DNA of 29,971 bases, from the NCBI RefSeq assembly GCF_001866055.1, contig NZ_MLQS01000022.1, positions 1 to 29,971 on the forward strand. The letters run 5' to 3'. Below the pieces are notes generated by a model. The model was not told where the DNA came from, did not search any database, and saw only the letters and a program-made list of their open reading frames with translations. Positions 1,164 to 20,411 of this stretch are shown one piece after another (position 1 is the stretch's first letter; each line of letters begins with the position of its first letter). This DNA is from Anaerobacillus alkalidiazotrophicus. Lineage in GTDB: Bacteria; Bacillota; Bacilli; Bacillales_H; Anaerobacillaceae. The translations under genes were made by a program, and so were the position numbers.

Positions 1164-1213
1164 CGATATTCCCCTTACTTTTAAAACTAATATTTGTGTC
1201 TAAGACAAATGAA

Positions 1214-1273
1214 AGGCGAGGTTTCAAGATTTAAACTCCCCAGAATATCACGTCGAAGTGGGGAAAGCCGCCT
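1214..1273. repeat. Two-tier hairpin in the gap between the NEAT gene and srtB
   Basis: Outer arms at 1214-1218 and 1269-1273 (AGGCG/CGCCT) enclose inner arms at 1237-1242 and 1259-1264 (TCCCCA/TGGGGA). On the minus strand eight T (1274-1281 region) precede the structure rather than follow it, so it is not a typical terminator for srtB. It is more GC-rich than its surroundings and could be a regulatory RNA structure or an insertion remnant. Confidence 0.4.
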
Positions 1274-1332
1274 AAAAAAAACCTAGATTGTGACGATAAT
1301 ACATCATGCGCCTATTGTATGTACATATTACT

Positions 1333-1363
1333 TAAGACTTTCACTAATTAAAGGAAAGTCTTA
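1333..1363 (-). terminator. Hairpin just after the two-NEAT gene
   Basis: Perfect 10-bp stem, 1333-1342 with 1354-1363, loop 11 nt, starting 17 nt after the stop codon of the two-NEAT gene in the minus direction. There is no clear T tract, so it may be an attenuator or mRNA-stabilising hairpin that lowers srtB expression. Confidence 0.4.
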
Positions 1364-1379
1364 GGCTTTGATTAAAAGA

Positions 1380-2501
1380 TTAGTTCTTTCTCAAGCGTAA
1401 TGAATAAGTCGCACCAGCTAATGACAAAAATGCTATAGCGATATAAAACATCGAGAAAGTATCACCAGTTTTTGGATTTGCTATTTTTTCTGTTTGGTTT
1501 GAAGTGTTAGTTTCTTTTGTTTCATTAGTTTCTGTTTGTTTTGTAGTTGTATTATTTTCAGGTGTAGGTGTACTTGAAGCAACGTGCTCTACAGTCTCAC
1601 CATCTAATTTTTCTAAAGTACTTTGGTCAAAAACTAATTTGAAATCAACTCTCATGTTATTGTTAGCTGCAATATGAGTTTCAATAATAGCCGGTTCGTT
1701 AACATCAAATATTTCGAATTTGTATGTTGTTTTATCAGTTTCATTAATTATGTCAAGAAACGGTACAAAATCACCAGCACTGTTTTTCACACTAGCATCT
1801 GTTAGTGGGTTTGTAAAAGTTACATAAGCATAAATTTTTTCATCGACAAACTCCCAAATAGCGGGATTCAATAGACTTTGGCCCATCATAGAAGGGTTAC
1901 CATTATCAGTACGTACAGCATCAATTTTAATTGAATATTTACCACTTTTTTCAGAAGTGTCTATAGGAGTAGTTTCAGTTTGATTACCGTTATTTTGGTG
2001 TTCATTGTTGTTAGGTTGTTCGTTATCATTTTGTTGTTCTTCCTCTACCGAAGTACTTTGATCATCTTGTACCTCTTCCTCTGATGGTGGTAGTTCAGCA
2101 GTTTTTACTAAAGTATCTGTTAAGAAAACTAGGTTAAAACTTACATCCATTCCAGGTGGATTTTGATGATATTTTAAAACTGTTGGAGCTTCAATAGTAG
2201 CTACTTTAAATTTGTAAGTATTCGTGTCTATTGTTTCAGCAGGTGTTTCACTAACTCCAACACGTAAATTTGTAAGTGGAACAGTGGTAGAAAGTGTAAC
2301 TTCTATATCATTGTTCTGTACTTCAAGTTGTACTGGATTTACTAAACGACCATTTGCAGTTGAATAATCACCAGTTACAGTATGCCTTCCTTCAACCTGA
2401 ATAGTATATATTCCATTTTCGAAACTAGAAGCTGCAATACCATTAGCCATCGTTACGACAAATAAAAATATAGTAACCGCTAAAAATAGAATTTTTTTCA
2501 T
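1380..2501 (-). CDS. Cell-wall-anchored protein with two NEAT domains
   Basis: A secreted 373-residue surface protein expected to bind or relay heme. It has a signal peptide (about 1-24), a first NEAT domain (about 29-135), an acidic Q/N-rich linker (about 137-182), a second NEAT domain (about 186-300), a Thr/Asn/Glu-rich wall-spanning stretch, and a C-terminal sorting signal NPKTG (342-346) with a hydrophobic helix and the basic tail RLRKN. NPKTG-type signals are used by sortase B on B. anthracis IsdC. By eye, the usual NEAT heme-ligand tyrosine pair Y-x3-Y reads Met118-x3-Phe122 in domain 1 and Met283-x3-Phe287 in domain 2, so heme binding may be non-canonical or lost. It lies between the isdC-like gene and srtB in the minus-strand operon. 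Confidence 0.85.
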   Translation of the reverse strand: MKKILFLAVTIFLFVVTMANGIAASSFENGIYTIQVEGRHTVTGDYSTANGRLVNPVQLEVQNNDIEVTLSTTVPLTNLRVGVSETPAETIDTNTYKFKVATIEAPTVLKYHQNPPGMDVSFNLVFLTDTLVKTAELPPSEEEVQDDQSTSVEEEQQNDNEQPNNNEHQNNGNQTETTPIDTSEKSGKYSIKIDAVRTDNGNPSMMGQSLLNPAIWEFVDEKIYAYVTFTNPLTDASVKNSAGDFVPFLDIINETDKTTYKFEIFDVNEPAIIETHIAANNNMRVDFKLVFDQSTLEKLDGETVEHVASSTPTPENNTTTKQTETNETKETNTSNQTEKIANPKTGDTFSMFYIAIAFLSLAGATYSLRLRKN

Positions 2502-2529
2502 ATATTTTCTCCATTCCCTATTAAGTTTA

Positions 2530-2569
2530 AAAAGGAACCCTACGTTTATTAGATTTATAGGGTTCTTTT
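2530..2569 (-). terminator. Attenuator-type terminator between the two NEAT genes
   Basis: An 8-bp core stem (2535-2542 with 2558-2565) is extended by A/T pairs. On the minus strand it is followed by a run of T. It lies in the 110-nt gap after the isdC-like gene and could make that first gene more highly expressed than the downstream NEAT and srtB genes, as with partial termination in many surface-protein operons. Confidence 0.6.
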
Positions 2570-2611
2570 GAAAAAGTAGTAATTTAGTTGTAACTTAAAT
2601 CAATAGTAAAA

Positions 2612-3211
2612 TTAGCCCTCATTCCGAACAGCTTTTCTTTTATTAACAACAACTGTTGCCACTAAAAGTAACGACATTACTAAACCTAAACTTGATAAAG
2701 TAGAGAAAATAGTATCGCTTGTTTGAGGGTTTGAAGCTGTTGCAGCGCTTGAGCTTGAGCTTGATACATCATCAGAGATTTTCTTTAACGTGTCTTTTTT
2801 GAAAACAATACGATACTCAACATCAATACCGACTGCTGCTACGTGAGTGCCGATAATAATTGGAGCGTCAAGATTAGCTAGCTTAAATTTATATGTTCTT
2901 TGATCACCGTTTTCCTTAGTAATTTCTGCAGGCACCATATTTCCAGCGTTATTTTCATATTTTACAGGACTTCCTGAGATCGTGATGAATGCTACGATAT
3001 TTCCATTATTAACTTCTAATTTAGCAGGTTTAATTAAAGACCCCATAGTATCAGCAGCAGATAGTTTATCTTCTGTAATATGTAGTCCATCGTATGAAAT
3101 TTCATAAGTACCATCTTCAAGAACAGAAGCTGCACCTGTCCCAACGAAAGCTGAAAAAACAAAAATAACTGTTAGTAAACTAGCTAATAACTTTTTAACA
3201 TTCGATTTCAT
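2612..3211 (-). CDS. isdC: IsdC-like wall-anchored NEAT protein
   Basis: A 199-residue protein with a signal peptide (about 1-28), one NEAT domain (about 31-146), a Ser/Ala linker, sorting signal NPQTS (161-165), a hydrophobic helix and a basic tail. In Isd systems such a protein sits inside the wall and passes heme to the IsdE lipoprotein. I chose the ATG at 3211 because an ATG five codons upstream is part of the ribosome binding site (GGAGGA, 7-nt spacing). It is the first gene of the minus-strand operon. The second tyrosine of the NEAT Y-x3-Y pair is present (Tyr133), but the position of the iron-ligating first tyrosine appears to be Ile129. The size, single NEAT domain, NPQTx signal and srtB linkage support an IsdC role, but strict orthology is inferred. 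Confidence 0.85.
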   Translation of the reverse strand: MKSNVKKLLASLLTVIFVFSAFVGTGAASVLEDGTYEISYDGLHITEDKLSAADTMGSLIKPAKLEVNNGNIVAFITISGSPVKYENNAGNMVPAEITKENGDQRTYKFKLANLDAPIIIGTHVAAVGIDVEYRIVFKKDTLKKISDDVSSSSSSAATASNPQTSDTIFSTLSSLGLVMSLLLVATVVVNKRKAVRNEG

Positions 3212-3412
3212 CAATAATTCCTCCATTTGTTTAGTATTAAAATATAACGATAATAATGACTGAAAACTCTAAATTTAAAAATCCCCCCTAAACTAAATTT
3301 AAATTTTTTGAAGTTTAGTTGATGAAGAGCCCCCCTTGAACTCGGTAAAAGTATTAAAAGTAGTTTATGTACAAAAACCGAGTACTTGAAAATGATAATT
3401 ATTCTCAACTCG
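3212..3412 (-). promoter_or_regulatory. About 200-nt structured leader of the isdC-like operon
   Basis: From the promoter described in the next entry, transcription would give an unusually long leader. It contains a possible hairpin ACTCGGT/ACCGAGT (3340-3346 with 3377-3383), a second AACTAAA/TTTAGTT (3291-3297 with 3314-3320), and two runs of six G on the minus strand (near 3283-3288 and 3330-3335). No riboswitch family was recognised. Confidence 0.35.
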
Positions 3413-3771: not shown

Positions 3772-3831
3772 TTGACAGATAAACATTTTTGAATATATGA
3801 TTTAACCAAATGATAATGATAACTATTTTCA
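3772..3831 (+). promoter_or_regulatory. Fur-controlled promoter of the heme importer/chelatase operon
   Basis: -35 TTGACA (3772-3777) and -10 TATGAT (3796-3801) with an 18-nt spacer. Overlapping Fur motifs run through 3811-3831, including TGATAACTATTTTCA (3817-3831), covering the likely start site. The promoter leads into isdE at 3871. Confidence 0.75.
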
Positions 3832-3870: not shown

Positions 3871-4929
3871 ATGTTTAAAGTTAGTAGTAATTTTAGCACG
3901 GTTAGTAAAATAACAATTTCATTTTTACTATTATTATCTTTGTTTGTATTACTAGTAGGTTGTGACAAACAAGATAGTTTAGCAGATTCAGGTAAAACGG
4001 AAATAAACGATACTGATCAAACAAATGAGGTAGAAGAAAATAATGAAGGTAATGAAGAAGTAGAACAAACAAGTAATTTTCCACTAACAATATTTGATTT
4101 AGCAAATCGTCAAGTTACTTTTGAACAATTACCAGAGAGAATTGTGACTGTTATTCCAGCTGATATGGAAATTATATATGCGCTTGGTGGAGAAGTAGTT
4201 GGGCGCCCACAAAGTAGTTCAGGAATTGTGAGGCCACCAGAAGCAGAAGTTGCAGAGGATATTGGTTTTCCGAAGGGGATTAATTTTGAAAAAATTGCAG
4301 CGTTACAAGCGGATATGTTTATTGGTCATACGCGTTTAAATTTAGATGACGTACCGACTTTAGAATCTTTAGGACTTAATGTTGTCTTAACTCAAGGTGA
4401 TAGTTTAGAAGACATTATTAGTTTAATTAAAATGTATGGTGACCTATTAGATCGAAATTTAGAGGCTGAAGCATTAATTAATGATATTGAAAATACAGTC
4501 GAGGAAATTTTAGCTGCTAAACGTGAAAATCCAGTTAGGGTTTTAGTTTTATTTGGTACTCAAGATGAAACAATGGCCGCGCTGCCACAATCATTATCAG
4601 GTAACCTTTTTGAACTAGCGGGTGCTGAGAATGTAGCTAAAGATTTACCTAGGTTAGATATGTATCCAACGTATGCACAGTTAAGCTTAGAGCGAATTTT
4701 AGAGGCAAATCCAGATGCGATTTATTTTATGGCTCACGGTGATGCAAAAGCGGCTTTACAGCAATTTCAAACACAAATGTCACAAAATCCAGCTTGGAAT
4801 AACTTGGATGCAGTAAAAAATGAAAACATAATCGTATTACCACATGAGTTGTTTGGAACAAATCCAGGTCCGAGAATTGTTGATGCATTGCAGTTTTTGA
4901 AAGATAGTTTAGATAGTTTGGAGTATTAA
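3871..4929 (+). CDS. isdE: IsdE-like heme-binding lipoprotein
   Basis: The substrate-binding lipoprotein of a heme ABC importer, 352 residues. The signal peptide ends in lipobox LVGC with acylated Cys31, followed by an acidic linker (about 40-68) and a class III (helical-backbone, TroA-type) binding fold from about residue 70. Recognisable family features are PERIVTV at the domain start, IYALGGEVVGRP and the C-terminal NPGPRIVDALQFL. Met99 lies where an axial heme ligand could sit, but ligand assignment is not certain. A GGAGGA ribosome binding site precedes the ATG. It starts the plus-strand operon with isdF (1-nt gap) and an ATPase, divergent from NEAT/srtB genes; this context favours heme over siderophore. 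Confidence 0.85.
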   Translation: MFKVSSNFSTVSKITISFLLLLSLFVLLVGCDKQDSLADSGKTEINDTDQTNEVEENNEGNEEVEQTSNFPLTIFDLANRQVTFEQLPERIVTVIPADMEIIYALGGEVVGRPQSSSGIVRPPEAEVAEDIGFPKGINFEKIAALQADMFIGHTRLNLDDVPTLESLGLNVVLTQGDSLEDIISLIKMYGDLLDRNLEAEALINDIENTVEEILAAKRENPVRVLVLFGTQDETMAALPQSLSGNLFELAGAENVAKDLPRLDMYPTYAQLSLERILEANPDAIYFMAHGDAKAALQQFQTQMSQNPAWNNLDAVKNENIIVLPHELFGTNPGPRIVDALQFLKDSLDSLEY

Positions 4930-4930
4930 G

Positions 4931-6001
4931 ATGAATATATTATTTGCTCTTTTAAAACCAGTACCATCTAAAGAACCTAGTGAAAATAAAATGGAGCAAG
5001 GTGATCCGAGGAAAAAAAAACGATGGATAGTTTTAATTACTGCAATTTCTTTAGTAGTTTTATCGATTATTTACGGATTAATTACTGGTGCAGTATCCAT
5101 TTCAGTTAGTGATGTTTGGAAGGCGCTCTTTGGGAGTGAAGAGGGTTTGTATTCACAAATCGTCTATGATCTTCGCTTACCAAGGGTATTAACAGGATTA
5201 TTAGTTGGAGCAAGTTTAGCGACTGCAGGTGCTTTATTACAAGGTGTTATGAGAAACCCTTTGGCTGATCCGGGAATTGTTGGGGTTTCAGCAGGTGCAG
5301 GACTAGTGGCGGTTATCATGATGATTTTATTTCCATTGCATTTGCATCTTTTACCGTTAGGTGCATTTATCGGAGCGCTTACAACAACGCTTGTAATTTA
5401 TGTGTTAGCTAATACAGGGAGCGGTGGCTCTCCTTATAAAATCATTTTAGCGGGTATTGCCGTTAACTCTTTATTAGGTGCAGCTATGACTGCTGTGATG
5501 GTTTTATATAGTGATCGTGTTCAAGCTGTTTTACCGTGGCTTGCCGGTGGGTTAGGTGGAAGAAGCTGGCCTCATTTTTCGATTATTTTCCCTTATGCAA
5601 CGATAGGTTTAATACTCGCATTTTTTGCAATAAGGCATGCTAATTTACTTTTATTAGGTGATGAAGTAGCAAAACTTTTAGGGCATAACGTTGAAAAAAG
5701 TCGACTTTTCTTAATTATTTTAAGTGCCTTTTTAGCGGGAGCAGCTGTAAGTGTTGCGGGTTTAATTGGGTTTGTTGGATTAGTTGTCCCGCATATTGCA
5801 AGGATGTTAGTTGGGAATGATTATAAATTCCTCTTACCGATCTCAGCATTAGGTGGTGCTTTTTTAGTCGTGTTTGCTGATACGGCAGCTAGAAGTTGGT
5901 TTGACCCTGTTGAATTGCCTGTAGGTATTTTGTTGGCATTTTTAGGTGCACCTTTCTTCTTATACTTACTCCATAGAGGGGGAATAAAAGTTGGGAAATG
6001 A
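4931..6001 (+). CDS. isdF: IsdF-like FecCD permease
   Basis: The membrane permease of the heme importer, 356 residues, normal for one FecCD subunit. After a hydrophilic N-terminus with a basic KKKR patch (about 28-31) it has around nine to ten hydrophobic helices. Family motifs are [17 protein letters not shown] near the start, the conserved [11 protein letters not shown], and [16 protein letters not shown] near the C-terminus, the loop that contacts the ATPase. The start lies 1 nt after the isdE stop and the 3' end overlaps the ATPase gene, so the three are translationally coupled. The hydrophilic N-terminal extension of about 30 residues is slightly long for the family. Confidence 0.88.
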
Positions 6002-6803
6002 TGTATTAGTAGCAGAACATTTAGACTTATTTCGGTCATCGACTTTTTCAATTAACGATGTTTCATTTCAGTTAAAAAAAGGTGAAATTGTCAGTATTAT
6101 CGGCGCAAACGGTTCGGGTAAATCAACAGTTTTACGACTTTTAACGAAATTAATCAATCCAAACAATGGTTGTGTTTATTTAGAAGGCAAAAAAATTGCT
6201 GAAATGTCACAAAAGACAATTGCACAAAAATTAACAATGCTACCGCAAGTTCATGATCATCATCTTGATTTAACTGTTTATGATCTCATTAAATATGGAA
6301 GAAATCCATTCCAAAAGTGGTATGAAGGTGCGAGTGCTGAAGATAAGGACATAATTGAGTTTGCCATTTCGGCAACGAACCTAGAACATTTGAGATATCG
6401 ACCGCTACATTCGCTTTCAGGTGGAGAAAGGCAGCGCGCCTGGATTGCGATGTCGCTTGCGCAAACACCAAATATTTTACTACTTGATGAACCGACCACG
6501 TATTTAGATATATCACATCAGTTAGAAGTGATGGAATTAGTAAAAAGACTAAATGAAGAAAACGGCATCACGATTGTGATGGTTTTGCATGATTTAAATC
6601 AAGCTGCAAAGTATAGTCATCGTCTAATCGCAATGAAAAGTGGCAGTATTGTCCGTCAAGGTTCACCTAAAGAAATCTTTTGTTGTGACTTTTTTGAAGA
6701 AATATTTGGGATTGATGTCAGTATATATCATGATGAAGGTACACCGTTTTTTATACCAAAATGCTCTGTAGCAAAGCAAAAATGTAAAGTAATAGCAAGA
6801 TAA
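5991..6803 (+). CDS. FecE/FhuC-type ABC ATPase of the heme importer
   Basis: The nucleotide-binding subunit, 270 residues. Walker A is GANGSGKST, the ABC signature LSGGERQRAW, Walker B ILLLDEPTTYLD and the H-loop VLHDLNQA. The DEPTTYLD form is typical of FecE/FhuC ATPases serving siderophore, heme and cobalamin permeases. I chose the TTG at 5991, preceded by GAGGGGGAA; it overlaps the isdF stop by 11 nt. It completes a three-part importer and is followed 27 nt later by the chelatase genes, with no terminator seen between. Confidence 0.9.
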   Translation: MGNDVLVAEHLDLFRSSTFSINDVSFQLKKGEIVSIIGANGSGKSTVLRLLTKLINPNNGCVYLEGKKIAEMSQKTIAQKLTMLPQVHDHHLDLTVYDLIKYGRNPFQKWYEGASAEDKDIIEFAISATNLEHLRYRPLHSLSGGERQRAWIAMSLAQTPNILLLDEPTTYLDISHQLEVMELVKRLNEENGITIVMVLHDLNQAAKYSHRLIAMKSGSIVRQGSPKEIFCCDFFEEIFGIDVSIYHDEGTPFFIPKCSVAKQKCKVIAR

Positions 6804-6830: not shown

Positions 6831-7754
6831 ATGAGTATAAAACAGAACATTTATCCATTTACGGCCCTTGTAGGTCAAGAAAATATGAAAAAAGCATTAA
6901 TTTTAAATGTAATAAACCCAGCCCTCGGTGGCGTTCTTATTCGCGGTGAAAAAGGAACCGCTAAATCAACGGCAGTAAGAGCTTTAGCAGATTTACTTGA
7001 ATCATTAAAAGTTGTTGACTTACCAATTAGTGCAACAGAAGATCAAGTAGTTGGATCACTTAACATTGAAGAAGCAATTAAAACCGGAGAAAAGAAGTTT
7101 GAACCTGGTTTATTAGCAAAAGCCCATAAAAATATTCTTTATATTGATGAAATCAATTTATTAGACGATCATATTGTCGATGTATTACTCGATGCAGCGG
7201 CGATGGGCGTTAATACAGTTGAGCGAGAAGGAATCTCTTATTCTCACCCAGCAAAATTTGTGCTAGTAGGGACAATGAATCCGGAAGAAGGAGATTTACG
7301 GCCGCAATTATTAGACCGTTTTGCTTTATCAGTTGAAGTAATCGGTGAACAAAATCCGAAAGACCGTGTTGAAGTTGTAAAGCGTAGACTTGCTTTTGAA
7401 AAAGATCCAGAAAGCTTTGTTACAGGATACGAGGAAGCACAGCAATTATTAGCTGAACAAATTATCCACGCTCAAAAAGTCATTCATGATGTAGTCGTTA
7501 CAGATGAAACGTTAGAAATAGCAGCAAAGATTTCAATTAAGTTAGATATTGATGGTCACCGTGCGGATTTAATGATGATTAAAACAGCAATGACAATCGC
7601 AGCTTTTGAAGGAAGATTACAAGTTGAAAAAAATGACTTACTAAAGGCTGCGACCCTCGTTCTTCCACATCGCTTAAGAAGAACTCCATTTGAGGATTAC
7701 AATCAAGGTTGGAGTGACATTGAGAAGCTCGTGAACGAAGAGTGCTTAGTGTAA
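6831..7754 (+). CDS. BchI/ChlI-like AAA+ chelatase motor subunit
   Basis: A 307-residue AAA+ ATPase of the magnesium-chelatase I family; such subunits form hexameric rings that drive metal insertion by the large subunit. Walker A is GEKGTAKST (39-47), Walker B ILYIDEI (102-108, Asp106-Glu107), and the sensor/arginine-finger block [18 protein letters not shown] is intact. The C-terminal helical lid ends with a GHRAD and LPHRLRR block. It has a GGAGG ribosome binding site and lies 27 nt after the heme ATPase gene and 12 nt before the D-like subunit. Housekeeping BchI is found in phototrophs; here there are no chlorophyll genes, and the neighbours are heme uptake genes, which suggests a role with heme or another tetrapyrrole. 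Confidence 0.9.
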
Positions 7755-7766
7755 TGGAGGTTTAAC

Positions 7767-9650
7767 ATGGAACAGCGATATGTGTACCCGTTTTCAGCAA
7801 TCATCGGTCAAGCACGTATAAAAAAAGCTCTATTGATGAACGTAGTTAATCCGAAAATTGGCGGTGTATTGATTACTGGAGAACGAGGAACAGCCAAATC
7901 AACAATGGTAAGAGCATTAGGTGATCTTCTTCAACAAACAAAGGTCGTCGACTTGCCACTAAACGTTACTGAAGAAATGGTTGTTGGAACAATCAAACTA
8001 GATAAAGCTATTAAAGAAGGAGTTAAAGAGCTTGAAGAAGGTCTTTTAGCGAAAGTGGATGGTCATATTCTTTATATTGATGAAGTTAACCTCTTGAGTG
8101 ATGGAATTACAAAAATCATTTTAGATGCCGCATCATCAGGGATAAACCGAGTTGAAAGAGAAGGTATTTCCTTTATTCATTCTTCTAAGTTCACATTAGT
8201 CGGGACAATGAACCCTGAAGAAGGTCAGCTATCGCCACAGTTTTTAGACCGCTTCGGACTTTATGTAACGGTTAAAGGAGAAGAAGATTTACAATCAAGA
8301 GTTGAGATTATTAAAAGACGTTTACAATATGAAGAAGATCCAAAGAAATTTTACTTATCATACGAAAAAGAAAATAAGCTTTTACGTGAAAAAATTGCTA
8401 AGGCAAAACAGCTAATTGAGTCAATTACTGTTCCTGATGGAATGATTGATTTATGTGCTAGTATTGCCCTTCAAGCAAATTGTTCAGGGCATCGTGCTGA
8501 CTTATATTTAATCGAAGCAGCTAAGGCGATTGCAGCACTAAATGAACAAAATTCTGTTTCAGTAAAACATATCGAGGAAGCTGCTCAATATGTCATCGTT
8601 CATCGAATGCGTGAGAAGCCAGAAAATCAACAAGAACAACAAGAAGAGCAAAACAATAACGAAAATCAACACGAAGAAGATCATGATCAACCAAATAATC
8701 CTAGTCAAGAAAATCAGCAAAATGACAACAATGATCGAGATAGTATGGATGAACTACCACCAACTGAACCACCACAAGATCAAGAAGATAATCAACTTCC
8801 TCAAGATAAAGAGTCGGTTTCAGATATTGGCGAACAATTTAAATTAAATAAAATTATCGCTTCTGAGAAAGATCGCCAAATTCGCAAAGGAAGCGGTAAA
8901 AGAAGTAAAACACGCTCAGGAACAAAACAAGGGCGCTTCGTTAAAGCGGCAATTTCAAGTGGCAAAGTGACTGATCTTGCATTTGTTGCAACAATTAGAG
9001 CAGCAGCTCCTTTTCAAAAATTAAGAAAAAGTAATGGAAATGTGATTACAATTACCGATGCTGATTTACGTAAAAAAGTTCGCGAAAAAAGAATCGGTAA
9101 TACATTGCTGTTTGTCGTTGATGCTAGTGGATCAATGGGAGCGCAACAACGTATGAAAGCAGTTAAAGGTGCTACGTTATCAATTTTAAATGATGCTTAT
9201 CAAAAACGTGATTCTGTTGGGATGATTGCTTTTAGAAAAGATACTGCCGAGCTCATTTTAGATATTACTAGAAGTGTCGATTTAGCACAGAGAAAATTAA
9301 GAGAACTGCCGACAGGTGGAAAAACTCCGCTTGCACACGGTCTCTTCTTAGGTTATGAACGTTTAAGAAAAGCGTTAATTAAAGATCAAGAAATTCTTCC
9401 AATATTAATTGTCGTTACTGACGGTAAAGCAAACCATGGTATGAATGGAACAGACCCTGTTAAAGAAGCTCTTGATATTGCACAACATATTGCTGCAACA
9501 GGAGTACAGTCTTTAGTCATTGACATTGAAAACAATTTTATTAATTTAGGTATCGCAAAAGAAATCGCTAAAGCATTAAATGCTGATTACTACAAATTAG
9601 ATGAATTAAAATCAGACAATATTGTTAGTGCGGTTAAAGCTATTTTATAA
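7767..9650 (+). CDS. BchD/ChlD-like AAA+/VWA chelatase subunit
   Basis: A 627-residue second motor/platform subunit. An N-terminal AAA+ domain (about 1-275) is followed by a Q/N/E/D/P-rich linker (about 281-350) and a C-terminal von Willebrand A domain (about 445-627) with an intact MIDAS motif DASGSMG (Asp452, Ser454, Ser456). The AAA+ domain is clearly a sister of the upstream gene product, sharing GTAKST, ILYIDE and GTMNPEEG. Unlike many BchD proteins, its Walker A (GERGTAKST, 38-46) and Walker B (Asp105-Glu106) look catalytically intact. Start ATG with GGAGG ribosome binding site. In class I chelatases the D subunit links the I ring to the large catalytic subunit, which is the next gene. 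Confidence 0.9.
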   Translation: MEQRYVYPFSAIIGQARIKKALLMNVVNPKIGGVLITGERGTAKSTMVRALGDLLQQTKVVDLPLNVTEEMVVGTIKLDKAIKEGVKELEEGLLAKVDGHILYIDEVNLLSDGITKIILDAASSGINRVEREGISFIHSSKFTLVGTMNPEEGQLSPQFLDRFGLYVTVKGEEDLQSRVEIIKRRLQYEEDPKKFYLSYEKENKLLREKIAKAKQLIESITVPDGMIDLCASIALQANCSGHRADLYLIEAAKAIAALNEQNSVSVKHIEEAAQYVIVHRMREKPENQQEQQEEQNNNENQHEEDHDQPNNPSQENQQNDNNDRDSMDELPPTEPPQDQEDNQLPQDKESVSDIGEQFKLNKIIASEKDRQIRKGSGKRSKTRSGTKQGRFVKAAISSGKVTDLAFVATIRAAAPFQKLRKSNGNVITITDADLRKKVREKRIGNTLLFVVDASGSMGAQQRMKAVKGATLSILNDAYQKRDSVGMIAFRKDTAELILDITRSVDLAQRKLRELPTGGKTPLAHGLFLGYERLRKALIKDQEILPILIVVTDGKANHGMNGTDPVKEALDIAQHIAATGVQSLVIDIENNFINLGIAKEIAKALNADYYKLDELKSDNIVSAVKAIL

Positions 9651-9657
9651 CGGGGGT

Positions 9658-9681
9658 GGGACAGAATCTCGCCCTTGTCCC
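9658..9681 (+). terminator. Hairpin in the chelatase D-H gap
   Basis: GGGACA (9658-9663) pairs with TGTCCC (9676-9681) in the 61-nt gap between the chelatase D-like and H-like genes. Only a short T run follows. It may act as a weak attenuator or as an mRNA processing site. Confidence 0.4.
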
Positions 9682-9711
9682 TTTAAATTAAAAGAAAGTA
9701 GGATGGCATGA

Positions 9712-12700
9712 ATGAAAATTACGATTATTTCAAATTCAAGTGCAGCGATGTCAGACTTAACTGCTGTTTTAAGAGAAATGGACGAACAAAATAAACGTGT
9801 GTTTTCTTTTAACCTTTTTGATACGTTTAGAGAATATAATGAAACAGAATTACAAGAACTGAAACAAGCTATTGTTGAAGCAGAATTTTTATTTTTAGAT
9901 ATGCATGCAGCTAGTAAGGAATTAGTACAAAGAGTTGTTGAATTTTCAACGGGTGTTACAAGCTACATAATTCCGATTGGCGGTGGCCCGAACCGGCAGT
10001 TTCATATGCTAAAAAACTTAAAGGATGATAGCCACGTTGAATTAATCCAAGATTATTGGCGCTTTACAGGTAAGGAAAATATTACAAACTTCTTATACTT
10101 TTTAGGAAGAGCTTATGGAGATTTGAAATTTTTACCTGAAGCAAATCCACCACAAACGTTAGAGCCTACCGGAATTTTTGACCCCAATACAAAAACACCG
10201 TATGCGACGTTTGAAGATTATGCAGATGCGGTAAATTTTGATAAAACGAAGCCTACGGTTGCATTACTTTTTACCGGGTTTAGCTTTCCGTTAAGAACAA
10301 TCGATATGGTTGAATTAATCGCTGAACGTATTAAACCATTTGCAAATGTGATTCCTGTAGCAACGACATCGTTAGGGAATTTAGATATTGAAAAACTTCG
10401 GTCGTTTTTAAACAATAGTGAAGAAACAAAAGCGAATTTGTTAATGAACTTTTTACCATTCCGATTAGGCATGGGTCCTATGGGCGGCGGCGGTGTAAAA
10501 CCGATCATCGATTTTCTAGAAGAGCTTAACATCCCATTGTTTCATGCTTTCTTTATGTCAAGTAGTACACAAGAAAACTGGGAACAGTCTGTTCAAGGAT
10601 TAGCTCCGTCAGAATACTTACTCAATGTGATGCTTCCTGAGCTAGATGGAAGTATTGAAACAATTCCAATTGCAGCGCTTGAAAATTTAAAAGCTGATGA
10701 GGAATATGGAATTAAATTTAAACGATTAGCACTAATTGAGGAACGAGTTGAAGAAGTGCTTAATCGTATGAAAAATTGGTTGAATCTGCAAAGAAAGCAA
10801 AATAGCGAAAAGAAAGTAGCGATTATTTGTTACAACTACCCGCCAGGCGAAGGCGGCCTTTTCGGAGCTTCGTACTTAGATACATTTGAATCGGTAGCAA
10901 ATATCTTAGGGTCATTGAAAAAAGAAGGCTATCAAGTTAACGACTTTACGGCTGACGAATTAATGGAAAAGTTTACGGCAGGAAAGCTTGTTAACTCTGG
11001 GAAATGGTCTGGAGATACTCCTAGCGATGATTTCATTCGTTATGATTCTAAAGCTCATGAAATTGCAATGCAAAATAAAGGATGGGCTGATGAGCTTGAA
11101 GAGCAATGGGGTAAATCGCCTGGAACTGTTATGACTGATGGAAAAGACTTTTTAATCCCAGGAATTATTTCAGATAATATATTCCTTGGCTTACAACCAA
11201 CACGTGGAGTTCATGAAAACCCAGAAAAAGCGTATCATGATCGCTCTATTTTACCTCATCACCAGTATTTTGCTTACTATCAATGGTTAAAAGATGAGTT
11301 TGAAGCTGATGTGATTATTCATGTCGGTGCTCACGGTACGTTAGAGTTTATGAAGGGGAAAGAAGTAGCGATGTCAGGTGATTGCTTGCCAGATTATCTA
11401 GTTTCTGATCTTCCGCATTTATATATTTACTATTCTGGTAACCCTTCAGAAGCGATGATTGCTAAACGTCGTTCACATGCGGTTTTAGTAAGTTATCAGT
11501 CTACACCATTTATGGAATCTGATTTATATGGTGATCTAGTAAAATTAGAGAGCTTAATGAGTGAACATGCGGAGACTGAGTTAAGTGGATTAAGACGAAG
11601 TGATGATTTATTAGCTACTATTATGGATGAAGCGAAAAAGCTTAATTTTAATTGTGAAGATCTTGAAGAAATTGAACATGAATTATATCGTATGAAACGC
11701 TCGTTAATACCAAAAGGTCTGCATTTATTTGGAGAAGGCTATTCTCATGAGGCAGCCGTTCAATATATGAAGTTTGTTTTACGCTATGACCGAGATAATT
11801 GCAAATCACTAAGAAGAATTTTAGCGGAGAATAAACAATTAGAGTATGATCAATTGCTAGATACTAATGAAAGTAGAATTTTGGCACAGTTAGATAAAGA
11901 AGCGAGTGAATTGGTAGACTTTTATGTTTCGACTCTTACTATTCCAAGTGATCATTTCAATACAGAAGAAGGAAATGAGGACTGCTTAAAAGCACTACAG
12001 TTCGGTTATCAGGCACTCGAAGCAAGTAAAAATTGTATGGAACTACCAGGTTTACTAAGAGCTCTAGACGGAAAATATTTACCTGTCCGTTTAGCAGGTG
12101 ACATGGTAAAACAGCCTGAAGTATTCCCGACAGGCTATAATCTTTATCAATTTGATCCTACTCAAGTACCAACAAAGTCAGCGGTAGCAACAGGTGAGAA
12201 TATCGGTAAACAAACGGTCGATCAATATTTAGCTAAACATCATAAATACCCACAAAGCATTGGTGTTATATTATGGGGCTTAGAAACATCTCGGACACAA
12301 GGAGAAACGATCGGTCAAATTTTATATTATTTAGGAGTTCGTGTAATTCAAGGCCGTGGCATGTTTGCACCGACATATGAAGTAATTCCAATGGCAGAGT
12401 TAAACAGACCTCGTTTAGATATTATTATTAACATTAGTGGTTTCTTTAGAGATATGTTCCCGAACTTAATGGAAGAATTACACCGTATCTTTAAAATGGT
12501 TGCAAAATTAGACGAGTCTGATGAGGAAAACTACTTTAAAGCTAATTGTAAAAAAGTTTATGAGCAGTTAATTTCACAAGGCTATTCACATGAAGACGCC
12601 CAAGATCTTTCATATGCTAGAATTTTCGGTCCAGTCGAAGGAGCTTATGCGACGAAGCTAACAACAGTGATTGAAACGAAAAACTGGGAAACAGAAGATC

Positions 12701-13347
12701 AACTAGGTGATACGTATAGTAACGGAATGCAGCACGTATATAGCTCTAGGTATCGAGGCGTACCGATGAAAGATCTACTTAATACCCACTTATCGGCAAT
12801 CGAAATTGTAAGCCAAGTAAGAAGTAACCATGAATTAGAAGTAACTGACTTGGATCATTATTATGAGTTCTTTGGCGGTATGGCTAAATCAGCAGAAATG
12901 GCTAGTGGTGGTAAAAAAGCGGAAATTTATATAAGTGATACGACTGGTGAAAAGGCTGAAACAGAAAGTGCTGAACATTCCATTAATCGTGGGGTAAGAA
13001 CAAGAGTGTTAAATCCGAAATGGATCGATGGAATGCTAGAACATAAATATCATGGTGTTCAGCATATGGTTGAACGTTTCCAAAATGTCCTTGGCTTAGC
13101 AGCTACGACAAACAAAGTAGAAAATTGGGTGTTTAGTAGCATGCACGAGACGTATGTAGCCGATCAAGAGCTAAAAGAAAGACTAAAAGAGAATAATAAA
13201 TGGGCTTATTATGACATGGTTGAAATTTTACTAGAATGCAACCAAAGAGGATATTGGGAAGCTACGGAAGAAGAGCTACAACAACTAAAAGAAACGTATT
13301 TAGAGTTAGAAGGTAGCATCGAAGAAAAAATTGGTGAACTAACTTAA
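9712..13347 (+). CDS. BchH/CobN-like catalytic subunit of a class I metallochelatase
   Basis: The 1211-residue porphyrin/corrin-binding subunit of an ATP-dependent chelatase. It reads as a full-length family member from an N-terminal domain beginning MKITIISNS to a C-terminus with MVEILLE. The core contains the metal/porphyrin-site motif HVGAHGTLEF (His537, His541), then AMSGDCLPD (from Ala553) and NPSEAMIAKRR. The MSGD...NPSEA.IAKRR pattern resembles BchH/ChlH more than CobN. Such proteins insert Mg2+ or Co2+ into tetrapyrroles with I and D partners, both encoded just upstream. No cobalamin or chlorophyll genes are near; the operon begins with a heme importer. A CobN-like protein, HmuS, from Bacteroidetes heme operons has been reported to remove iron from heme, so a dechelatase role is my preferred inference. 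Direction, metal and substrate are unproven. Confidence 0.88.
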   Translation: MKITIISNSSAAMSDLTAVLREMDEQNKRVFSFNLFDTFREYNETELQELKQAIVEAEFLFLDMHAASKELVQRVVEFSTGVTSYIIPIGGGPNRQFHMLKNLKDDSHVELIQDYWRFTGKENITNFLYFLGRAYGDLKFLPEANPPQTLEPTGIFDPNTKTPYATFEDYADAVNFDKTKPTVALLFTGFSFPLRTIDMVELIAERIKPFANVIPVATTSLGNLDIEKLRSFLNNSEETKANLLMNFLPFRLGMGPMGGGGVKPIIDFLEELNIPLFHAFFMSSSTQENWEQSVQGLAPSEYLLNVMLPELDGSIETIPIAALENLKADEEYGIKFKRLALIEERVEEVLNRMKNWLNLQRKQNSEKKVAIICYNYPPGEGGLFGASYLDTFESVANILGSLKKEGYQVNDFTADELMEKFTAGKLVNSGKWSGDTPSDDFIRYDSKAHEIAMQNKGWADELEEQWGKSPGTVMTDGKDFLIPGIISDNIFLGLQPTRGVHENPEKAYHDRSILPHHQYFAYYQWLKDEFEADVIIHVGAHGTLEFMKGKEVAMSGDCLPDYLVSDLPHLYIYYSGNPSEAMIAKRRSHAVLVSYQSTPFMESDLYGDLVKLESLMSEHAETELSGLRRSDDLLATIMDEAKKLNFNCEDLEEIEHELYRMKRSLIPKGLHLFGEGYSHEAAVQYMKFVLRYDRDNCKSLRRILAENKQLEYDQLLDTNESRILAQLDKEASELVDFYVSTLTIPSDHFNTEEGNEDCLKALQFGYQALEASKNCMELPGLLRALDGKYLPVRLAGDMVKQPEVFPTGYNLYQFDPTQVPTKSAVATGENIGKQTVDQYLAKHHKYPQSIGVILWGLETSRTQGETIGQILYYLGVRVIQGRGMFAPTYEVIPMAELNRPRLDIIINISGFFRDMFPNLMEELHRIFKMVAKLDESDEENYFKANCKKVYEQLISQGYSHEDAQDLSYARIFGPVEGAYATKLTTVIETKNWETEDQLGDTYSNGMQHVYSSRYRGVPMKDLLNTHLSAIEIVSQVRSNHELEVTDLDHYYEFFGGMAKSAEMASGGKKAEIYISDTTGEKAETESAEHSINRGVRTRVLNPKWIDGMLEHKYHGVQHMVERFQNVLGLAATTNKVENWVFSSMHETYVADQELKERLKENNKWAYYDMVEILLECNQRGYWEATEEELQQLKETYLELEGSIEEKIGELT

Positions 13348-13400
13348 TAAATAGGGTTGTAAAACATCGCTAGGATAATATAAGTAAGAAGATTGTAAAG

Positions 13401-13434
13401 CCGCGCTTATAGTAGAAATACTGGCGCGGTTTTT
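13401..13434 (+). terminator. Intrinsic terminator after the chelatase large subunit
   Basis: CCGCGC (13401-13406) pairs with GCGCGG (13424-13429), with an inner AGTA-GAAA-TACT hairpin and a following T5. It suggests at least partial transcript ending before the exporter genes, which may also have their own promoter in 13435-13500. Confidence 0.8.
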
Positions 13435-13507
13435 CTAATAAGAAAAACTAATGCTTTCACTATTTAAGAATAAGCGACAAGCCAAGCGATAGATTAGGAG
13501 CATGTAT

Positions 13508-14308
13508 ATGAATGAATATTCTATAGTAGTAAAAAATTTGTCAAAAAGCTTTAAAAATATTCATGCCGTAAAAAATATTAGTTTTCAAGTTGAAAAAGGC
13601 GGCTGTTTTGGTTTATTAGGTTCGAACGGTGCAGGGAAATCAACAACGATCAAAATGATGACTTCACTACTATCAATTGATTCAGGCGAAATTGAAATTT
13701 GTAGTAACAATATAAAAACACAACCGCTGGCTATACGAAAATTGATCGGTTATGTACCACAATCTTTGTCAGTCGATGGTACGTTAACCGCATATGAAAA
13801 CTTAATGTTATTTTCAAAGTTATACGGAATTTCAAAAAAGTATCGTAAAGACCGGATCACTCAAATAGTAAAAATGTTTGATTTAGAAGAGGTAGCAAAT
13901 AGACAAGTAAAAACTTTTTCGGGGGGAATGGTAAGACGCTTAGAAATTGGTCAAGCGATTTTACATAACCCTGAAGTATTATTTTTAGACGAACCCACTG
14001 TCGGGCTAGATCCAGTTGCTAGAAAAAATGTCTGGCATCACATTGAACAATTAAGAACTAACTATAATATGACAATCATTTTGACAACACATTACATGGA
14101 CGAAGCTGAGTCTATGTGTTCGAACATTGCAATCATGAGCCAAGGGGAGATCGTTGTTAATGGAACGTTAGCACAATTAAAAGAAAAAATCGGAAATAAC
14201 GACGCCAGTATGGATGATATTTATACCCATTTTGCTGGTAATTCGCAAATGAAAGGGGAATTAAAGGATGTCACAGCAACTAGACGTATGGCACAAAGAC
14301 TTGGTTAA
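13508..14308 (+). CDS. ABC-2 type exporter ATPase
   Basis: A 266-residue ATPase of the DrrA/CcmA-like exporter class. Walker A is GSNGAGKST, signature FSGGMVRRLEIG, Walker B VLFLDEPTVGLDP and H-loop TTHYMDEAE; the DEPTVGLDP form marks ABC-2 drug/lipid/porphyrin exporters rather than importers. I chose the second ATG (13508) because an ATG six bases earlier is too close to the ribosome binding site (TTAGGAG). The 3' end overlaps the permease gene by 41 nt. The substrate is unknown; position behind heme import and chelatase genes makes porphyrin or excess heme a reasonable guess, but general drug export cannot be excluded. Confidence 0.88.
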   Translation: MNEYSIVVKNLSKSFKNIHAVKNISFQVEKGGCFGLLGSNGAGKSTTIKMMTSLLSIDSGEIEICSNNIKTQPLAIRKLIGYVPQSLSVDGTLTAYENLMLFSKLYGISKKYRKDRITQIVKMFDLEEVANRQVKTFSGGMVRRLEIGQAILHNPEVLFLDEPTVGLDPVARKNVWHHIEQLRTNYNMTIILTTHYMDEAESMCSNIAIMSQGEIVVNGTLAQLKEKIGNNDASMDDIYTHFAGNSQMKGELKDVTATRRMAQRLG

Positions 14309-15086
14309 AGATAAAAATCCTATATTAAAGTTTTGGTCTGAAGTATTTGCGATTGTTGAATTAGAATGGAAAAAAATCAGAAAAGAACCGATTGAAATTG
14401 TCTTACGAGCGATTCAGCCTATTCTTTGGCTTGTCCTATTCGGTCAAGTATTTAGTCAAATAAGAGGTATTCCAACTAACGGAGCAACATACATTGAATT
14501 TTTAACACCAGGTATTTTAGCACAATCGATTACATTTCTTTCAATTTTTTACGGATTAAATATTTTATTAGATCGAGATTCTGGGTTAATGCAAAAATAT
14601 TTTTCTTCACCCATCTATCGATCCGCATTTATTTTAGGGAAAATGTTTTCGGCATCACTTCGGGCTTTAGGACAATTAGTAATAATCATCGTTATTGCAC
14701 TAGTGCTAGGTGTTAACCTCGATTTAACAATTGTAACTATCATTGGAGTTATTTTTACAGTTATTTTAGGTTCAGCATTTTTTGCCGGTTTATCAATTTT
14801 TATTGCCTGTCATATTCGTTCAAGAGAAGGGCTAATGGGGTTTGGACAATTAATTACGATGCCATTATTTTTTGCTTCAAACGCCCTGTATCCAATTTCG
14901 ATCATGCCCGGTTGGCTACAAGAAATCGCAATTGTCAATCCAATGAGCTATACTGTAGATGCATTACGAGGCTTTTTGCTTACAACACATACACCAACTA
15001 TTATCTTAGATTTCGGTATCTTATTGTGTGCTGTTATATTAATCCTTTTTGCAAGCACAAAAGTTTACCCGAAAATCCTAAATTAG
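14268..15086 (+). CDS. ABC-2 type exporter permease
   Basis: A 272-residue membrane protein with a cytoplasmic N-terminus of about 45 residues and six predicted hydrophobic helices, standard for ABC-2 permeases. The pattern RAIQPILWLVLFGQVF, then GLNILLDRDSGLMQKYFSSP, and near the end FFASNALYPISIMP and NPMSYTVDALRG, is characteristic of the family. It overlaps the ATPase gene, so the two form one exporter. A decayed copy of its last roughly 70 codons lies at 16691-16905. A hairpin terminator follows at 15114. Confidence 0.9.
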   Translation: MSQQLDVWHKDLVKDKNPILKFWSEVFAIVELEWKKIRKEPIEIVLRAIQPILWLVLFGQVFSQIRGIPTNGATYIEFLTPGILAQSITFLSIFYGLNILLDRDSGLMQKYFSSPIYRSAFILGKMFSASLRALGQLVIIIVIALVLGVNLDLTIVTIIGVIFTVILGSAFFAGLSIFIACHIRSREGLMGFGQLITMPLFFASNALYPISIMPGWLQEIAIVNPMSYTVDALRGFLLTTHTPTIILDFGILLCAVILILFASTKVYPKILN

Positions 15087-15754: not shown

Positions 15755-15808
15755 TTGACATTTTTTTAAAAAAGCTGAATAATATTTATAAAGTGATAAT
15801 GATTATCA
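15755..15808 (+). promoter_or_regulatory. Promoter with a perfect Fur box
   Basis: -35 TTGACA (15755-15760; a second copy at 15749-15754) and a candidate -10 TAATAT (15780-15785, 19-nt spacer) or AATAAT (15778-15783, 17-nt). The Fur box TGATAATGATTATCA at 15794-15808 is an exact 7-1-7 palindrome, the best in the window, and lies over the expected start site. Confidence 0.8.
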
Positions 15809-16612: not shown

Positions 16613-16690
16613 GATTTATAAACTAATAAATCTTTAATCATTTTAAAATTCCTCACTACTTATGGGATATGGACAGTTAATCATAAATGC

Positions 16691-16905
16691 AGTTATTTTT
16701 TGCTTCAAGTAGTACCTTATATCCAATTTACCCGGTTGGCTGTAAGCTATTGCCATTGTTAATCCGTTAAGCTACAAAATAAATGCTTTACGTAAATTCT
16801 TATAAGAAACGCATATCCAAATATTCTAGTAGACTTTGGTGTATTACTTTTTGCAGTAGCTTTAGTCTTGTGGCAAGTACAAAGGTATATACCAAAATTA
16901 AATGA
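16691..16905 (+). pseudogene. Decayed duplicate of the ABC-2 permease 3' end
   Basis: This stretch aligns by eye with about 14866-15086 of the intact exporter permease: it begins with the shared block TTATTTTTTGCTTCAA, keeps TATCCAATTT and CCCGGTTGGCT, and near the end has a similar CAAGTACAAAGGTATA/CAAGCACAAAAGTTTA segment. Frameshifts and in-frame stops prevent translation. It shows that a second exporter gene, or a duplication of this one, once lay here. Confidence 0.7.
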
Positions 16906-16981
16906 CTTTATCAACAGCCGGAGGACACATTACTAGAGGGAATGAAAAATAGTCTTATGTGGTAATTGTGACAATTATCAC

Positions 16982-17035
16982 TGAAAATGATTATCAATCA
17001 CAATAAAATATAGGTAATAATGATAATCATTTTCA
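16982..17035 (+). promoter_or_regulatory. Tandem Fur boxes before the NMT1-type ABC operon
   Basis: TGAAAATGATTATCA (16982-16996) and TGATAATCATTTTCA (17021-17035) each match the 7-1-7 Fur consensus with one mismatch. The second ends 20 nt before the ATG at 17056. Two operators suggest tight iron repression. Confidence 0.8.
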
Positions 17036-17055
17036 ATAGGGAGAGGGATACACTC

Positions 17056-18093
17056 ATGAATACTATGATGAAATTTGTGTTACTGGCTTTGTGTTTATTA
17101 GTTTTTGTCGGCTGCAGTACAGCAAAACAGGATGGGCAACATGAAGCACTTGGTAATGAAGCCGAAAAAACAAGTGTTAAGCAACCGGATGAAAAGGTAA
17201 ATGAAATGGAAAAAGTTAAAAATGATAAGGTCTTTACATTTTTAGCACCAAAATCAGCACCGGTATTACCAGCACTATTAATGGCTGACGGAGGAGCGGA
17301 GGATATTTCCATCGAAGTTAAGACTTGGGATACTATTGATCAATTATTAGCCCAAATTCAAGGAAATGAAGCAGACTTCACTGCTGTTCCTTTGAATGTT
17401 GCTGCTAACCTTCATGCAAAAGGTTTACCAATACAGTTAATTGATGTGAATACATGGGGTACGATTTTTTTAGTTACTACAGACACAAACGTCACATCTT
17501 TAGCTGATTTAGAAGGGGAAGAAATCTATGTTTCTCATAAGAGTGGCCCGCCAGATATTTTATTAAACCACTTTTTAGCAGAAGAAGGGATTAATGACAA
17601 AGTAACACTCTATTATTCAACACCACCTGAAATTTCACAAATGTTGATCGCGGGTAATATAAAGCATGCAGTTATACCGGAACCTGCATTGAGCGGTGTT
17701 CGACTACAATTAAAAGATCAGTTAGTTCAAGTAGTTGATTTTCAAGAATCTTGGCACGAAATTTATGGGTTGGATCTTCCCCAAGCTGGTATTATCGTAA
17801 ATAAGAAGTTTGCTGCCGAAAATCAAGAAGCGGTTGAGCAATTTTTACAAAGCTATCAAGAGGCGATTCAATTAATGAAAAAAGATCCAGAAAAGGTAGC
17901 GGATTTAGCCGAGTCTACTATAGGAATGAAAGCTCCTATGGTAAAGACTGCTTTAAATCATATGATGGTACATTCAGTTATAGCTAGTGATGCAAAACCG
18001 GTTATCGAGCAATATTACGAAATATTATTGCAGTCTCAGCCAGAAGCTATAGGAGGAAAACTCCCTGATGAAGGGTTCTATTTTTCAAAATGA
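17056..18093 (+). CDS. SsuA/ThiY (NMT1-type) substrate-binding lipoprotein
   Basis: A 345-residue lipoprotein. I start at the ATG at 17056 (preceded by GGGAGAGGG); an upstream in-frame ATG lies inside the Fur box. The signal peptide ends at VGC with Cys20, followed by a charged linker and a two-lobed periplasmic-binding fold of the NMT1/SsuA/NrtA/ThiY superfamily. Supporting segments are SLADLEGEEIYV, the PPDILLNHFLAEEGI block and VIPEPALSG. These proteins bind small organics such as sulfonates, pyrimidines or nitrate, not usually iron chelates. It is coupled to a permease and an ATPase, and then to a methyltransferase and a cupin. The tandem Fur boxes make an iron-related organic ligand likely, but the substrate cannot be read from sequence. 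Confidence 0.8.
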   Translation: MNTMMKFVLLALCLLVFVGCSTAKQDGQHEALGNEAEKTSVKQPDEKVNEMEKVKNDKVFTFLAPKSAPVLPALLMADGGAEDISIEVKTWDTIDQLLAQIQGNEADFTAVPLNVAANLHAKGLPIQLIDVNTWGTIFLVTTDTNVTSLADLEGEEIYVSHKSGPPDILLNHFLAEEGINDKVTLYYSTPPEISQMLIAGNIKHAVIPEPALSGVRLQLKDQLVQVVDFQESWHEIYGLDLPQAGIIVNKKFAAENQEAVEQFLQSYQEAIQLMKKDPEKVADLAESTIGMKAPMVKTALNHMMVHSVIASDAKPVIEQYYEILLQSQPEAIGGKLPDEGFYFSK

Positions 18094-18847
18094 TAAGTGG
18101 TTAACAGTAGCGGCGATTGTATTTATCGTTTGTGTATGGTGGATAGCATCTAGTTTCTATCCACCTATCATTCTACCTAGTCCGGCTGATACGCTCAAAA
18201 AATTTTACGAACTATTAATTGCTGGAAAATTAGTCAATGAACTTTTGATAACCATCCAACGGGTGTTGCTCGCCTTTACCATTTCCTTTTTGATTGGAGC
18301 TATTTTAGGAAGTTTAGTAGGGAAAACCAAAAACTTATATTTATTTGTTAAACCGATCATAACAATCATTCAAACAGTTCCGCCTATATCTTGGATCATA
18401 CTTGCAATTATTTGGATGGGGTTAGGTGGTGGAGCACCAATCTTTGTAGTTATCATTGCTACATTTCCAATTTTCTTTTTCAATGCCTCCGAAGGAATAA
18501 AACAAGTAAGTGAAGATCTCTTAGAAATGTCGACAATCTTTCAAGTAAAACCACAGCGTGTACTGTTAGATGTGTATGTACCTTCGTTATGGCCCTTCAT
18601 ATCTTCAGCGATTACCATTTGTATTGGGATTAGTTGGAAAACTATTGTCATGGCTGAGCTCCTAAGTAGTAATAATGGGGTCGGTGCAGCTTTAGGTTTA
18701 GCACGCTTACAATTAGAAACTGCTGAAGTATTAGCTTGGACACTATCCATCGTTATATTGGGAGTTACTTGTGAGCATATTTTTCAATATGTCAGTGATA
18801 AAACTCGTGTGGGGAAGGTGAGTAAAAGTTGGAAATTAAAGGGTTGA
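18068..18847 (+). CDS. SsuC/TauC-type ABC permease
   Basis: A 259-residue permease of the binding-protein-dependent (MetI-like fold) class with about six helices. The EAA-type coupling loop reads ASEGIKQVSEDLLEMS, and the motif GISWKTIVMAELL follows, as in SsuC, TauC, NrtB and ThiX-type permeases. The ATG at 18068 overlaps the binding-protein gene by 26 nt and has an AGGAGG site, so translation is coupled. It belongs with the flanking lipoprotein and ATPase. Confidence 0.88.
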   Translation: MKGSIFQNDKWLTVAAIVFIVCVWWIASSFYPPIILPSPADTLKKFYELLIAGKLVNELLITIQRVLLAFTISFLIGAILGSLVGKTKNLYLFVKPIITIIQTVPPISWIILAIIWMGLGGGAPIFVVIIATFPIFFFNASEGIKQVSEDLLEMSTIFQVKPQRVLLDVYVPSLWPFISSAITICIGISWKTIVMAELLSSNNGVGAALGLARLQLETAEVLAWTLSIVILGVTCEHIFQYVSDKTRVGKVSKSWKLKG

Positions 18848-19605: not shown

Positions 19606-19627
19606 TTAAAACTAGGAGGAAACTCGA

Positions 19628-20389: not shown

Positions 20390-20411
20390 TTAATCGATGG
20401 AGGGAGTTACG

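Follow-up and report, generated by a model that had tools for sequence, protein, structure and literature searches.

Magnesium chelatase and the cobaltochelatase CobNST insert Mg2+ or Co2+ using ATP, as described in PMC7689651. HmuS of Bacteroidota (PDB 9d26, 9p4s) indicates that the chelatase fold can run in reverse, with a turnover that requires NADH and not ATP (PMC12583661); the P. gingivalis HmuS is the subject of PMC13227078. Here we analyse a stretch of 29,971 nucleotides from Anaerobacillus alkalidiazotrophicus (contig NZ_MLQS01000022.1, positions 1 to 29,971; this whole stretch is called the window), in which genes for the I, D and H subunits of a class I metal chelatase lie behind those of an importer and beside NEAT and sortase genes. 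We propose, with a probability of roughly 45%, that this module is a Fur-controlled, ATP-driven demetallase that would strip an imported iron-porphyrin, most likely heme, of its iron. The gene content, the Fur box, the placement in the trees and the importer lineage are observed; its substrate, direction, ATP use and the fate of the ring are inferred.

The three chelatase genes are encoded together, as in a class I metal chelatase, and by ORF calling and Pfam/NCBIfam scans all their reading frames are intact. They specify the AAA+ motor subunit I (6831-7754, + strand; 307 aa, AAA_5 and AAA_lid_2, with a Walker motif), the D subunit, an AAA+ protein with a VWA/MIDAS domain (7767-9650, +; 627 aa, Walker A GERGTAKST and MIDAS DASGS), and the catalytic H subunit (9712-13347, +; 1211 aa), which matches PF02514 with 1065 bits over profile positions 2-1089 of 1090. 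Ahead of them stand an IsdE/Lmo2184-like binding lipoprotein (3871-4929, +; PF01497, Peripla_BP_2), a FecCD permease (4931-6001, +; PF01032) and the importer ABC ATPase (5991-6803, +; PF00005). The initial annotation had described a complete I, D and H set behind binding protein, permease and ATPase, read from a single Fur-box promoter with no terminator before I, and this layout holds. A promoter-like TTGACA-18-TATGAT (3772-3801, +; 11 of 12 matches) is followed just downstream, at the operon start, by an overlapping Fur-box pair, TGATAATGATAACTATTTTCA (3811-3831), made of two overlapping 15-mers with 3 and 2 mismatches. Promoter-like sites show no overall excess in the region (31 found vs. 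41.5 expected from shuffles); 15-base Fur-box sites with at most one mismatch number 5 in the window vs. 0.03 expected from 30 Markov shuffles. The four terminator-like hits on the + strand from the binding-protein gene to H (5447, 5479, 5741 and 6566) are all within coding sequence. The gap between D and H (9651-9711, +) contains a stable hairpin without a T-run (fold of 9641-9715, -19.2 kcal/mol), whose GGGACAGAAT occurs only once in the window. The operon likely ends at a hairpin with a T-run (13397-13433, +; fold of 13376-13450, -19.7 kcal/mol), which is absent from the list of terminator-like hits because its loop exceeds the limit of that list.

Upstream of the importer-chelatase genes and divergent from them (387-3226, -) are a sortase gene (387-1163, -; PF04203, 57.8 bits, class B as judged by its neighbours) and genes for two cell-wall proteins, one with two NEAT domains and an NPKTG motif (1380-2501, -; PF05031 in two stretches) and one with a single NEAT domain and an NPQTS motif (2612-3226, -; PF05031). 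We take both motifs to be of the sortase-B type. A Fur-box-like site with 1 mismatch (3393-3407) lies before the NEAT genes. The window thus has what is expected of an Isd importer, namely NEAT proteins with sorting motifs and a sortase beside a binding protein and permease. A search of the window NEAT proteins against solved structures gave no match at 1e-3.

How does the H subunit compare with the described enzymes? Among the NCBIfam models the BchH-like one is its top scorer (799, cut-off 829), ahead of CobN (642, cut-off 822), with both cut-offs missed; by this score the chelatase looks porphyrin-type. H has a structure model with a pLDDT of 86.5, and its PDB matches are ChlH, CobN and HmuS. 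H carries HVGAHG (His541) and DHYYEFFGG (Asp1048-His1049, Glu1052), which fit, by pattern rather than by residue alignment, the HmuS motifs HxGxHG, with the catalytic His, and DHxxEFxGG given in PMC12583661. HmuS has membrane anchors at both ends, a heme site formed by Met79 and His254 at its head/neck and a methionine-rich insertion of ~120 residues; the window H shows no anchors (best 19-residue mean hydropathy 1.24) and no such insertion (at most 4 Met per 40 residues), shares 24% identity with HmuS and comes with I and D. The module may work like HmuS, yet it is not an HmuS. With ChlH/BchH and their partners ChlI and ChlD the window shares the three-subunit make-up and its best-scoring H family, and ChlH has a His at the position of His1049, within a TDxxHY motif that the window H shares; in the alignment, this His is followed by neither Glu nor GG in ChlH, unlike in the window H. 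Further differences from magnesium chelatase are the score under the BchH cut-off and the setting in a Fur-box importer operon. In line with the initial annotation, no chlorophyll or B12 gene was found among the 20 window proteins scanned with Pfam (the window has 30 ORFs of at least 80 aa).

The importer is related to those of Isd loci. The top solved relatives of the binding protein are Lmo2184 (5joq), which we take to bind heme, and IsdE (2q8p). Like the window protein, the aligned Isd-locus proteins and all ten proteins of the Zur-type operons introduced below retain the HG motif, whose His we presume to be a heme ligand together with the IsdE Met; it is missing in the binding proteins of riboswitch-type operons. 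In the permease tree, the permeases of four Fur-box operons, the window included, join one permease each from two Paenibacillus Isd loci, L097 and L098, with 100/100 support, apart from the Zur and riboswitch permeases, and a tree constrained to hold the Fur and Zur permeases together was rejected (106 log units worse, p-AU 0.00014). This tree left out matches below 240 bits, namely the window permease at 21529-23493 and the second importer of each of these two loci; in another permease tree they group apart on long branches. Since the chelatase tree instead places Fur with Zur (see below), chelatase and importer were combined: judged by the trees, they have different evolutionary partners and have been brought together. 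The permease tree does not resolve whether this joining took place once or twice; the binding-protein gene comes first in the window and the permease gene first in the other three Fur-box operons. With Isd heme uptake the window therefore shares NEAT and sortase genes, Fur boxes, binding-protein relatives and, with the Paenibacillus loci, the permease lineage. It differs from L097 and L098 in that no chelatase was found in those Isd stretches (15 kb and 12 kb). Both loci have a FecCD importer on either side of the NEAT genes. The sortase-side importers lie in the NEAT operon, their permeases group apart from the window, and the L097 sortase-side binding protein keeps the IsdE Met and HG patterns; the other importer runs divergently from the NEAT genes and is preceded by Fur-box-like sites, as in the window.

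Bacillota repeatedly show operons that combine a binding protein, permease and ATPase with I, D and H, and their upstream DNA differs. Fur boxes lie near the operon start in the window, in Fredinandcohnia quinoae (L002), in Cytobacillus massiliigabonensis (L004) and in a member of the family of the latter (L092). Ten loci have Zur-like boxes with 0-2 mismatches to TCGTAATNATTACGA, which we take to be the B. subtilis Zur box: L001, L006, L007, L009, L011 (Paenibacillus), L048 (Gracilibacillus), L013, L094, L095 and L096, with 2 mismatches in L009; for the six of the ten loci tested, 10 shuffles gave 0.0-0.2 boxes expected per locus. What follows the box is an oxidoreductase gene in L013, at 1.4 kb from the binding-protein gene downstream, and a Fur-family regulator gene in L095, so that control of the chelatase there takes a further step of reasoning. 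A cobalamin riboswitch (RF00174) was found in eight clostridial loci: L003 (cut by the contig end), L005, L010, L012, L017, L037, L064 and L079. The Rfam scan covered the window and 32 loci; neither the window nor any of the 14 further operon loci from Bacilli that it included gave an RF00174 hit at the gathering threshold. L093, from the family of L004, lacks a riboswitch as well as any Fur- or Zur-like box near the operon start, and no riboswitch was seen within the stretch available for L008, L035, L053, L065, L066, L067, L074 and L078; L019 lay outside the box scan.

The split of the operons by regulator, as labelled from upstream DNA, matches the tree of the H proteins. In a FastTree tree of 113 rows, the 10 Zur, 4 Fur and 7 riboswitch rows each fall on one side of a branch (99, 99 and 97), separated from the other labelled rows (92 of the 113 rows have no regulator label), and the three labels together need 2 changes, the fewest possible. 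An IQ-TREE tree of 37 rows gives support of 92 to the Fur rows (with P0002 and P0003), 100 to the Zur rows (with P0066) and 86 to Fur and Zur together, with the riboswitch rows outside in two branches rather than one. The P rows, P0002 and P0003 among them, have no genomic context available and are unlabelled. The H tree omits ORFs of 1050 aa or less (L019, L052, L054, L055 and L079), the loci L081-L084 and L087-L091 (repeats or short flanks) and 24 loci, L105-L128. In the D tree, too, the window shares one side of a branch with the Fur and Zur rows (97), along with L093 and three Negativicutes rows. The initial annotation had named as contrary evidence a placement within CobN proteins tied elsewhere to the B12 pathway: the outer relatives do have B12 links, but the window is placed among Fur and Zur rows and outside that group. 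Given these links, a B12-linked ancestor may lie behind the iron and zinc versions, the root itself not being proven.

If the proposal is right, the importer would deliver an iron-porphyrin, most likely heme, which H would hold in its central cavity between His541 and His1049. The I/D AAA+ ring would spend ATP to deform the porphyrin ring or to open H, Fe2+ would leave, and the porphyrin would stay intact, to be reused or exported, possibly via an ABC-2 exporter pair downstream of H (13502-15086, +; PF00005 and PF01061), a candidate exit for the metal-free ring. Such a module would give a Gram-positive bacterium an oxygen-free route to porphyrin-bound iron in which the ring is kept, and a motor of the chlorophyll/B12 type, run on ATP, would drive iron release in place of the NADH of HmuS. 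The initial annotation regarded the system as undescribed; in open-access literature, searched by titles and the starts of abstracts and including few subscription journals, we found no paper on a chelatase with NEAT or IsdE, nor one on a cobaltochelatase with heme in Firmicutes or a magnesium chelatase with Zur.

Several observations weigh against this proposal. The binding protein scores 137.5 with the IsdE equivalog (cut-off 298.65; the NCBIfam IsdE scores of L002 (Fur), the divergent L098 importer and one Zur-type protein, at 157.8, 149.4 and 67.3, are also below it). The IsdE Met has no conserved counterpart in the binding protein of the window, nor in those of the divergent importers of L097 and L098, and the HG motif is missing in L002, L004 and L092. 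The window importer groups with the divergent importer of the Paenibacillus Isd loci and not with the classical IsdE-type one. YxxxY, which we take to be the NEAT heme motif, is absent at its position in all three window NEAT domains and present there in the aligned L097 and L098 NEATs; NEAT genes are missing from the three other Fur-box genomes. As for H itself, its sequence shows no sign of iron specificity: the His541/His1049 pair is found in most of the family, cobalamin-riboswitch relatives included, and Y388 is the sole alignment column that, by our criterion, tells the 6 Fur-group rows from the 19 Zur or riboswitch rows. Neither the D tree nor the I tree unites the four Fur rows, the terminator-like hairpin stands between H and the exporter pair, and no biochemical precedent for ATP-driven metal removal was found in the literature searched. 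Taken as a whole, the interpretation given in the initial annotation is partly supported.

Two candidate markers do not hold up. The bis-His pair was rejected as the mark of a heme dechelatase, with His1049 in 23 of 26 aligned rows, riboswitch types included, and by pattern in at least 98 of the 120 relatives listed. Clade-specific residues were rejected as a discriminator, Y388 being the only one among the 25 rows under the criterion used.

Much of this contrary evidence would suit the same demetallation on another substrate, such as iron-coproporphyrin, another iron-tetrapyrrole or various metal-porphyrins; the metal would then be set by the importer rather than by H. The lack of YxxxY, the unconserved IsdE Met and missing HG motifs, the non-classical importer and the near likeness of Fur, Zur and riboswitch H proteins in the column test are all in its favour; we nevertheless consider it rather unlikely, as the closest solved relatives of the binding protein are IsdE and Lmo2184 and the window protein itself keeps the HG motif. 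A cobaltochelatase with a corrinoid importer, i.e. BtuFCD-like proteins with a CobN-like H and I/D working in B12 salvage or synthesis under a minor Fur box, is improbable. It draws on the eight outer clostridial loci with cobalamin riboswitches, on BtuF structures that match the window binding protein too, more weakly, and on a CbiZ gene near I, D and H in L065. Those clostridial CobN/riboswitch operons have H proteins of the same family and often the same set of importer, I, D and H, but they come with a riboswitch and CbiC, whereas the window has a Fur box, the permease lineage found beside NEAT genes, and NEAT and sortase genes adjoining; in addition, the CobN model scores below BchH. CbiC, used as a marker of B12 synthesis, is present in 8/8 riboswitch-type genomes, 3/10 Zur-type genomes and G798 (L093), 12/22 in total, and in 0/3 Fur-type genomes, counted without the organism of the window, which argues against the Fur group serving to insert cobalt. 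Least probable by our estimate is that I/D/H insert rather than remove, building a metalloporphyrin needed in iron starvation in the manner of the characterised I/D/H sets and in keeping with the BchH best score, given that a location after importer genes and a Fur or Zur-like box suits acquisition, that none of the 20 scanned window proteins is porphyrin-modifying, and that HmuS shows the fold running in reverse.

Turning back to demetallation of an iron-porphyrin, the Zur-like sisters and the riboswitch-bearing outer relatives suggest that the same machine serves the zinc and the corrinoid/cobalt economy elsewhere. Zinc-starvation-type genes lie near 5 of the 10 Zur-like loci, whose neighbours were scanned in part: Pfam identifies COG0523/cobW genes near L006, L048 (two) and L095, FolE2 is near L011 and a FeoB-like protein near L048, and BLAST clustering places a COG0523-like ORF in L011 and L094. 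COG0523 genes and zinc-independent paralogs sit at Zur sites according to PMC2770081. The Zur-like operons of importer, I, D and H could possibly form a system that takes zinc from tetrapyrroles. P. aeruginosa PA1922-PA1925, a set with a Zur-regulated CobN-like gene, a TonB receptor and an ExbD-like gene whose role is called undetermined (PMC4542158), and the Paenibacillus and Gracilibacillus loci resemble the window in placing a chelatase H by uptake genes in a metal-starvation setting, the metal there being zinc and not iron. More tentatively, the Bacillota I/D/H family as a whole might consist of general ATP-driven demetallases for iron (Fur), zinc (Zur) and cobalt or corrinoids (riboswitch), the window holding the iron version; we hold this generalisation to be doubtful. 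If true, the split by regulator on one enzyme tree would predict which metal is the substrate for genes that databases at present call 'magnesium chelatase' or 'CobN', and zinc scavenging from tetrapyrroles would become a testable idea.

A side observation concerns the other Fur-box operons. In L002 (3281-4094), L004 (2903-3730) and L092 (2889-3716) a divergent Crp-type regulator gene, assigned by Pfam in the first two and by BLAST cluster in the third, lies beside the Fur box, and a perfect TGTGA-N6-TCACA palindrome stands between it and the operon. In the window this palindrome occurs with at most one mismatch only at 16967. Oxygen or redox control of the L002, L004 and L092 operons is possible.

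The spread of H was surveyed among the best 120 of 357 relatives, with only the 7995 candidates sharing most words scored, and in a scan of genome contigs among the best 80 of 586 confirmed places. Identities among the 120 range from 81% downward, with many relatives from Paenibacillus and clostridia, and the nearest listed proteins are P0002 (81%) and P0003 (71%, labelled Evansella caseinilytica by one source). H is rare: it is present in 6/398 sampled genomes of the class of G013 (four of them at 44-49% identity), 3/397 of the order of G013 (partly the same genomes), 4/193 of the family of G004 and 1/17 of the family of G002, this one being G002 itself, and it is absent (0/7 and 0/7) from the families of two genomes that match the window protein at 28261-29718. 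Eight pattern matches in viral contigs included no relative, and all plasmid relatives (159 records) are below 60% identity.

A tie of H to NEAT genes was rejected: NEAT genes are present in 5/28 and 1/13 genomes searched, and among those genomes L053 alone has one at 4 kb or less from H. In this rumen Clostridiales locus (L053:5124-11949), H, a Trep_Strep-like protein (just under the Pfam cut-off), CbiQ, a double ABC ATPase and a NEAT protein, also without YxxxY, follow in one run. In L065 and L032, genes for a CbiQ protein and an ATPase are found together with I, D and H. Staphylococcus lugdunensis has an ECF-type heme importer with a Fur box (PMC7299338); no paper linking Trep_Strep to ECF and heme was found in the open-access literature.

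Adjacent ABC-2 pairs resembling that at 13502-15086 lie within 7.5 kb of H in 6/85 loci, and a seventh, L070, has both genes, not adjacent. In L030 and L033 (Methanoregulaceae, methanogens) H, a FecCD permease, an ATPase, an ABC-2 pair, I and D are found in one stretch. In the window, the 3' portion of the gene for the exporter permease (14832-15083) also has a decayed copy at 16659-16903, with 67% identity over 256 columns. A perfect Fur box at 15794-15808 is followed by no + strand ORF of at least 80 aa within the next 1.2 kb. Finally, Fur-box-like sites at 16982, 17015 and 17021 precede genes for an SsuABC/NMT1-like importer, with methyltransferase and cupin genes after them (16982-20753), and on the basis of these sites this importer is predicted to be iron-regulated.

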